A stretch of DNA of 64,000 nucleotides, taken from NCBI GenBank assembly GCA_016871715.1, contig VHCO01000012.1:1-64000 (forward strand). The letters are read 5' to 3'. The stretch is from Verrucomicrobiota bacterium (GTDB lineage: Bacteria > Verrucomicrobiota > Verrucomicrobiia > Limisphaerales > J093). Every line of letters starts with the position of its first letter. Positions within the stretch are counted from its first letter, which is position 1. Both the position numbers and the translations under genes were made by a program. This document shows positions 2,661-42,455 of the stretch, in pieces. The notes below the pieces were generated by a model. It was not told the DNA's origin. It saw nothing but the letters and a program-made list of their open reading frames with translations, and made no database searches.

Positions 2661-3436
2661 GATCCGGCGGGGCGTCCGCGCCGCCACCAACCCAGCCAGC
2701 GGTGCCACCAACTGACATTGCGCAGGTCGGCCAGGGCCTCGCCGAGCGCTGGACACCGCGGGTCCAACTGGCGCGCTTGATCGAATGAATCGGCTGCCGC
2801 GCTGGCCAGCCCCAGCGCCATTTGACAGCGGCCCATTTGCAGCCAGATGACCGCTTGCGCGCCGTCCAGGGCCAAGGCCTGGCTGATCAGGCGCAGCGCC
2901 ACGGAGAAGCGGCGGTACCAGGAGTGGATGCGCGAGGCGAGCCAGGGCCAGAGCCAATCGCGGGGCGTGACCGCCAGCGCCTTGCTGAAGCAGTAGTCGG
3001 CGCGCCGTTCTTTCCGGGCGAGCAAGACGTCGCCGCGCGCCAACCAGATGTAGGGCGTGTCACCCCGCTCCTCGATGGCTGCGTCCGAGAACAGCAAGGC
3101 GGCCTTCAAGTCCCCCGTCCGTGCCAGGGCCACGGCCTTGGCGGCCAACACCTCCGGCTCGCGTGGAAACCGCGCGGCGGCTTGATCCGCCCAGTTCTTG
3201 GCTTCCTCGAAATCGCCCAATTCGATCAGCATGCGGACTTGTCCGACCCAGGCGTGGGGGTTTTGCGGGTTGGACTCGAGCACGCGCGCGAAGGCGCGCA
3301 AGGCCAGCTCGAAATCGCCGCGGCGCAAGGCCTCCTCGGCCGCCTGCGCCTGGAGACCTTCGTCACAGGCCAGCTCTTGCTGCCGAACCTCGTGAGGCCG
3401 GCGTTCGCCGAATTCGAGGTTGCCAAAGCGGCTCAT
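2657..3436 (-). CDS. TPR protein
   Basis: Start MSRFGNLEFGERRPHEV; TPR-like repeats (LRRGDFELALRAFARVLESNPQNPHAWVGQ); overlaps the next start by 4 bp. Confidence 0.75.
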   Translation of the reverse strand: MSRFGNLEFGERRPHEVRQQELACDEGLQAQAAEEALRRGDFELALRAFARVLESNPQNPHAWVGQVRMLIELGDFEEAKNWADQAAARFPREPEVLAAKAVALARTGDLKAALLFSDAAIEERGDTPYIWLARGDVLLARKERRADYCFSKALAVTPRDWLWPWLASRIHSWYRRFSVALRLISQALALDGAQAVIWLQMGRCQMALGLASAAADSFDQARQLDPRCPALGEALADLRNVSWWHRWLGWWRRGRPAGS

Positions 3437-3675: not shown

Positions 3676-3984
3676 ATGACGTACATTTTAACGGCGTATA
3701 TCGTGCTCCTGCTCGTGGGAGGACTGATCGGGTATGTGAAGGCGGGGAGCAAGGTCTCGTTGGCGATGTCGCTCGGATTCGCCGCGGCGATAGGGCTATG
3801 TGTGTTCACGGGTGTGCGGCACGGGCTGACGATCGCGGTGGTGCTACAGTTGGCCTTGCTGGCGGTGTTTGTGGCGCGCTACCTCAAGACCAAGAAGTTC
3901 ATGCCCGCGGGTCTGATGGGGGTGGTAACCGTGCTGGCCGTGACGGCCGAGTTGGCGATCCAATCGGTGGGGCGCGGCTCGTAG
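3676..3984 (+). CDS. TMEM14 family small membrane protein
   Basis: MTYILTAYIVLLLVGGLIGYVKAGSKVSLAMSLGFAAAIG is TMEM14-like. Confidence 0.75.
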   Translation: MTYILTAYIVLLLVGGLIGYVKAGSKVSLAMSLGFAAAIGLCVFTGVRHGLTIAVVLQLALLAVFVARYLKTKKFMPAGLMGVVTVLAVTAELAIQSVGRGS

Positions 3985-4036
3985 GACCCGCTAGGCGGAG
4001 GTGGCCGTCCGCGCTCCACCTCGTCAAGGATTCCGG
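3969..4036 (+). repeat. Partial or diverged copy of the MITE-like element found at 42253-42383
   Basis: 65-bp ungapped alignment to the reverse complement of 42256-42320 with about 9 mismatches; end acctcgtcaaggattccgg resembles the TIR. Confidence 0.8.
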
Positions 4037-42029: not shown

Positions 42030-42455
42030 TCAGGGCACCTCGCCCCTCACCCGCTGAAGCTCCGGCGCCTGGACGATTCCCTGGCCATCGGTAAATACGC
42101 GCAAGCCGGCGCCCTTGCCATGCTTTGCGCCGGTCTGGTCCCAGGGGATCGTGAGCGTGCGCCCATGATAAGCGACGCTGTCCAACCAGAAACACGCCCA
42201 CTCTCCCGGTGGCACGAGGGGATGGACCTCCACTTGACGGTCGACGCGCGTACCCGAATCCTTAGCGAGGTGGAGCGCGGACGGTCACGTCCGCCAAGCG
42301 GGCCTGACGACCCGCGCCCCACATGGAGCCGGCCGGGTTTCACCTGCGATGGCAGCCCTCAAGGACCTCGCTAAGGATTCGGGGCGCGTACGGAGGCCGA
42401 CGAGTCCGCTGATTACGAGGCCGCAAGACGTGGAATGGTTGTTGTCTTCGCATCA
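42030..42455 (-). pseudogene. C-terminal fragment of a large glycoside hydrolase, interrupted by the MITE-like element
   Basis: EDNNHSTSCGLVISGLVGLRTR | element | VDRQVEVHPLVPPGEWACFWLDSVAYHGRTLTIPWDQTGAKHGKGAGLRVFTDGQ. Confidence 0.7.
42253..42383. mobile_element. 131-bp MITE-like element, perfect 19-bp TIRs, 7-bp flanking duplication GCGCGTA (42246-42252 and 42384-42390)
   Basis: cccgaatccttagcgaggt (42253-42271) and acctcgctaaggattcggg (42365-42383) are exact reverse complements; GCGCGTA abuts both ends. Confidence 0.88.

Follow-up and report, generated by a model that had tools for sequence, protein, structure and literature searches.

A MITE copy within a glycoside hydrolase remnant

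The window, that is, the whole stretch of 64,000 nucleotides analysed, carries a 131-bp element bounded by terminal inverted repeats (TIRs) and target site duplications (TSDs), which splits a minus-strand gene remnant encoding the C-terminal domain of a glycoside hydrolase (Table 1). The perfect 19-bp TIR pair, 131 bp apart and accompanied by a flanking 7-bp direct repeat, lies far outside what chance would produce. A previous sequence-only reading had placed both repeats and the GCGCGTA copies abutting them, and was correct to the base. The family TIR is 18 bp long, base 19 being paired in the window copy and unpaired in the family consensus; the family ends are written as CCCGAATCC, also CCCGAATCCTTAGCGAGG, with T at position 7 and C at position 8 in CCCGAATC. 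The element has neither a gene of its own nor coding capacity, it is strongly self-complementary (z = -7.7), and no promoter or terminator pattern was found when these were sought within it.

Table 1. Coordinates of the features described in the window
Feature	Position	Strand	Remarks
MITE copy, 131 bp	42253..42383	+	8 substitutions (6.1%) relative to the family consensus
Left TIR, CCCGAATCCTTAGCGAGGT	42253..42271	+	family consensus TIR is the first 18 bp
Right TIR	42365..42383	-	exact reverse complement of the left TIR
Left TSD, GCGCGTA	42246..42252	n/a	direct reading and genome-wide TSD statistics
Right TSD, GCGCGTA	42384..42390	n/a	direct reading; the empty paralogous site has one copy
REP-like twin-hairpin cassette, GGAGC-GCGGACG/GTCA/CGTCCGC-CAA-GCGGGCC/TGAC/GACCCGC-GCCCC, inside the MITE	42272..42320	+	
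Hairpin 1, GCGGACGGTCACGTCCGC	42277..42294	+	
Hairpin 2, GCGGGCCTGACGACCCGC	42298..42315	+	in the family, GCGGATCTGACGATCCGC or GCGGGTCTGACGACCCGC
Glyco_hydro_65C C-terminal gene remnant, split by the MITE	42033..42452	-	halves join in frame after MITE removal
Second, decayed half copy of the MITE (left 70 bp, 84% identical)	3967..4036	-	

Removal of the MITE and one GCGCGTA restores the minus-strand frame (CEDNNHSTSCGLVISGLVGLRTRVDRQVEVHPLVPPGEWACFWLD...), which confirms the continuity claimed in the earlier reading, and the restored frame matches PF03633 Glyco_hydro_65C above the cut-off. Empty sites with one TSD copy had been proposed by that reading as something to look for at orthologous loci; one was found at a paralogous locus of this genome (C7:11483-11761; 314 nt, 87% identical), gap-free through the insertion point and carrying one TCCGCGC in place of the TACGCGC of the window. 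Of the 23 other genomes with a match, most have homologs that, at the protein level, run through the site uninterrupted. Beside the insertion, the host gene lacks its 5' part, with no long upstream frame, and the similarity to the paralog begins abruptly at about 42452; judging from these features, the host fragment was probably a truncated remnant before the MITE was inserted, and the effect on the host gene is one of ordinary gene decay.

Copy number, divergence and target site duplications

The assembly of the genome that contains the window is a fragmented draft of 8.58 Mb in 554 contigs, 94.5% complete. Near-full copies of the MITE, about 40 in number and 75-95% identical to the window copy, were located on tens of contigs; the search of the genome gave 40 near-full or long matches, with identities of 86-100%. 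The right-end 25-mer yielded 30/29 matches (59 copies) against 0/0 in the control, bearing out the prediction that the 131 bp would recur. With up to three mismatches, the 18-bp TIR matched at 97 forward and 98 reverse positions, where the reversed control matched at 2 and 5. The family thus comprises about 60 to 100 scattered copies; the neighbourhoods of approximately 80 sites were retrieved for inspection. Nearly all of the 41 extracted full copies have a length of 131 bp. Since divergence from the consensus spans 0.8% to 21% (median 4.2%), the family has been active over a long period, with a younger group of copies. The youngest, at most 2.5% from the consensus, include C217:5747, C15:6037 and C79:2489. 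An older subfamily is visible in which the ends are those of the main family and the right half has diverged.

TSDs were evaluated in the 40 copies for which both flanks were available, using as a null the right flanks shuffled among copies. Exact duplications of 6, 7 and 8 bp were present in 7, 10 and 2 copies, respectively, against shuffled means of 0.20, 0.25 and 0.05 (19/40 in total, 7 bp being the commonest length), and a 7-bp duplication with at most one mismatch was also found in 19/40 copies, with 0.6 expected. Target duplications are present at insertion sites other than that in the window. No exact 5-bp duplication occurred among the 40 copies, and no strong target motif was seen in the flanks (G+C 67%). 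About half of the copies are missing an exact TSD, which we attribute to their age.

The family displays the defining features of MITEs apart from an identified partner: it is short (the range being about 30-300 bp) and without a transposase gene, the TIRs are common to the copies, TSD length is nearly constant, and copies are dispersed in large number, with empty sites. Multicopy dispersal, TIRs, target duplications, an empty site and long activity are all on record here; the type of element is known, the family new. We are highly confident that the 131-bp element is a non-coding copy of a lineage-specific bacterial MITE family with 18-19-bp TIRs, moved by a putative DDE-type transposase that would be supplied in trans. 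The reading of the locus as a non-autonomous transposon is supported by the dispersed copies, the TSDs and the empty site; because no autonomous partner with matching TIRs was found, mobilisation in trans is something that we infer. The transposase would recognise the TIRs, excise or copy the MITE (by cut-and-paste or copy-out) and insert it at a target cut with a stagger of 6-8 bp (most often 7); at this locus, such an event would have left GCGCGTA on both sides and interrupted the minus-strand remnant of the GH65C domain. It is scarcely credible that the element is instead an artefact of assembly or a regulatory hairpin repeat that does not move, since the strong self-complementarity and the lack of coding capacity, which would suit such an origin, stand against TSDs, an empty site, copies of differing age dispersed over many contigs, and a lack of compensation among the TIR substitutions (1 compensatory versus 31 broken cells).

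Distribution and comparison with known miniature elements

No full copy of the MITE was detected in 57 relatives, and in 321 relatives from the order the TIR gave only single one-mismatch matches, in five genomes, which resemble chance matches. The blastn search of plasmids returned no MITE, the TIR was absent from the viral contigs, and no Rfam family matched. A lone TIR match among GTDB contigs, in a Pirellulaceae genome, was judged by eye to lie in coding sequence and was discarded as a chance match. Among the genomes searched, the expansion looks confined to this lineage.

The family resembles the known bacterial MITEs (Correia/NEMIS, ERIC and RUP; PMC2229807) in its size of roughly 100-200 bp, TIRs, strong base pairing, lack of a transposase, genic and intergenic copies, and target duplications, but differs from them in its TSDs of 6-8 bp (mode 7), in the absence of a terminal TA, and in being unmatched in Rfam, plasmids and viral contigs and present in one genome among those searched. 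A comparable case is MITEAba12 (PMC6382973), which likewise is IS-derived, small and non-autonomous and is found both interrupting genes and in a composite unit; a parent IS (ISAba12) has been proposed for it, whereas no parent was found for the family described here. A well-supported MITE family is hereby added, with an unusually clear record of TSDs, empty site and age spread, and its interest lies in a REP-like core and in composite units.

TIR-bounded units with foreign DNA

Among 18 eligible TIR pairs separated by 0.26-12 kb, one was flanked by a duplication. This unit (C239; L034 133-3411) measures 3279 bp and has two family ends and an exact 8-bp TSD (GTTGGCGA), which we estimate would arise by chance about one time in a thousand. 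It contains a Peptidase_S8 (subtilase) gene remnant, flanked by two miniature elements, and, at its left end, a second MITE type of 182 bp. The arrangement is reminiscent of TIME and TIME-COMP structures (PMC4133298), in which two miniature elements bracket and mobilise passenger DNA, and the single outer duplication around 3.28 kb suggests passenger mobilisation of the TIME-COMP type; composite units of this kind could move passenger genes. TIMEs, however, derive from Tn3 and have ends of 38 bp and duplications of 5-6 bp, compared with 18-19 bp and 6-8 bp here. Membership of the family among Tn3-derived TIMEs was rejected on its 18-19-bp TIRs and the lack of exact 5-bp duplications.

A second unit, of 555 bp (C65:29392-29946), has family ends (one exact, the other with 1 mismatch) that enclose pieces of a transposase ending in YRVRWQIELIFKHL; no TSD was found at it. 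The transposase fragment is of IS4 type, and its presence between family ends raises the possibility, which we consider improbable, that the family is mobilised by an IS4-family element (PF01609, YREK signature). Where the ends of the nearest full-length relatives could be delimited, the TIRs are of the type CATAAGCGYTAACTTA or GGCGTCAAGTTAAGGAT and the duplications measure about 10-11 bp, and because these differ from the ends and TSDs of the MITE the fragment is read as captured. The junction of the unit points the same way: the E(6)K motif, which the other remnant has whole, is disrupted there at a shared TGCTTGA, which gives the unit the look of captured DNA, and the unit has no TSD. The IS4 subgroups listed in Table 1 of PMC2266710 end in CA, CAT, CT, CW, YT or -AAT, and none has ends like those of the MITE. 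On the ends and the duplication length (6-8 bp in the MITE), an IS4-type transposase was rejected as partner for now.

Search for the autonomous partner

A full-length transposase with matching TIRs was sought, as the sequence-only reading had advised. Every exact TIR match was located, as were nearly every one-mismatch match on contigs up to C192 and each of the 59 right ends, and almost all of these sites were inspected; no intact transposase between matching TIRs was found in the draft of 554 contigs (94.5% complete). Frames adjoining single TIRs appeared by eye to be ordinary genes and were dismissed as candidates. Because short-read drafts lose multicopy insertion sequences, this absence is weak evidence that the partner is missing from the organism, and the assembly could lack a multicopy insertion sequence that had collapsed.

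One lead, and we regard it as a lead only, comes from C373, where a family-type right end at position 3226 lies about 150 bp downstream of the decayed C-terminus of a transposase whose relatives are annotated as IS1634 family (L170 3226-3720); the ends of a relative 60% identical to this transposase begin CCCATCTTT. It is conceivable, if rather unlikely, that an IS1634-family element serves, or once served, as the partner. The resemblance between the ends of this relative and those of the MITE is slight, C373 is a single decayed locus whose other end is lost, and the intact-looking IS1634-type element of the same genome (L096) has different ends. Duplications of IS1634 elements are mostly reported to be 5-6 bp, and their ends have the form C-----YT (PMC2266710); the MITE has T at position 7 but C at position 8, TSDs of 6-8 bp and one relic association.

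An IS630-like element, recognised by eye, lies at several contig ends of the genome, which suggests that multicopy insertion sequences have been lost from the draft. It is inserted at CTNAG sites (L081, L079, L067, L145-L149). Eight of its junctions were seen; as two of them interrupt a MITE TIR and a third abuts the TIR-like CTAAGGATTCGGG, the MITE ends serve it as target.

A REP-like twin-hairpin core

The internal hairpin claimed in the earlier reading is present (hairpin 1), and is followed by a second one that was absent from its list. In the family consensus, the core consists of the hairpins GCGGACG-GTCA-CGTCCGC and GCGGATC-TGAC-GATCCGC. Hairpin 1 also occurs outside the MITE, in this genome as well as elsewhere in the order, and the pattern GGAGCGCGGAC-N3-9-GTCCGC was found in 20/40 genomes searched, this one included, against a near-zero control. 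The genome also contains the cassette without a TIR, for example as 96-bp tandem units on two contigs (C48 and C95) and alone on a third (C22). One paired swap was observed in hairpin 2 in 8/33 copies; it is explained by a subfamily or by REP gene conversion, and with the TIRs uncompensated, RNA-level selection on the hairpins was rejected.

These observations bear on whether the element might be of the REP/REPIN type, a RAYT (HUH tyrosine) transposase, and not a DDE transposon, being responsible for its movement. Its core does hold two palindromes, the first of which belongs to an order-wide REP-like repeat, but the mobile boundary is an 18-19-bp TIR with 6-8-bp TSDs, REP cassettes without a TIR exist separately (L153, L154, L157), and target duplications are not known from REPINs; we judge this origin very unlikely. 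The twin hairpins share with REP, BIME and REPIN sequences (PMC3733652, PMC3116915) the match to a palindrome repeated in half of the related genomes sampled, while differing from them in that the cassette lies inside a TIR-bounded mobile unit with TSDs. Assignment to the REP/REPIN class, defined by a RAYT association and by palindromes with neither long TIR nor TSD, was rejected, the family having TIR and TSD.

REP-like palindromes are carried here inside a TIR-bounded element, and the MITE is probably a mosaic in which transposon ends surround REP sequence. As to the order of assembly, which we infer, the simplest reading of the sequences would be that a REP-like cassette already resident in the genome became enclosed by transposon ends. 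A broader proposal, which we offer tentatively and think less probable than not by a wide measure, is that of a mosaic mobile element in which DDE-transposon ends captured the resident twin-hairpin cassette and later a transposase fragment and a subtilase gene, so that in this lineage the TIRs would work as an open system for capturing genes.

Two sets of tandem repeats were observed. The 96-bp arrays at L153 1-400 and L154 200-858 contain a twin-hairpin cassette of the MITE-core kind, and positions 1-303 of the window hold three units of 101 bp in tandem, with the REP-like palindrome GGAGCGCGGGCGTCTCGCCCGC present in at least the first two.
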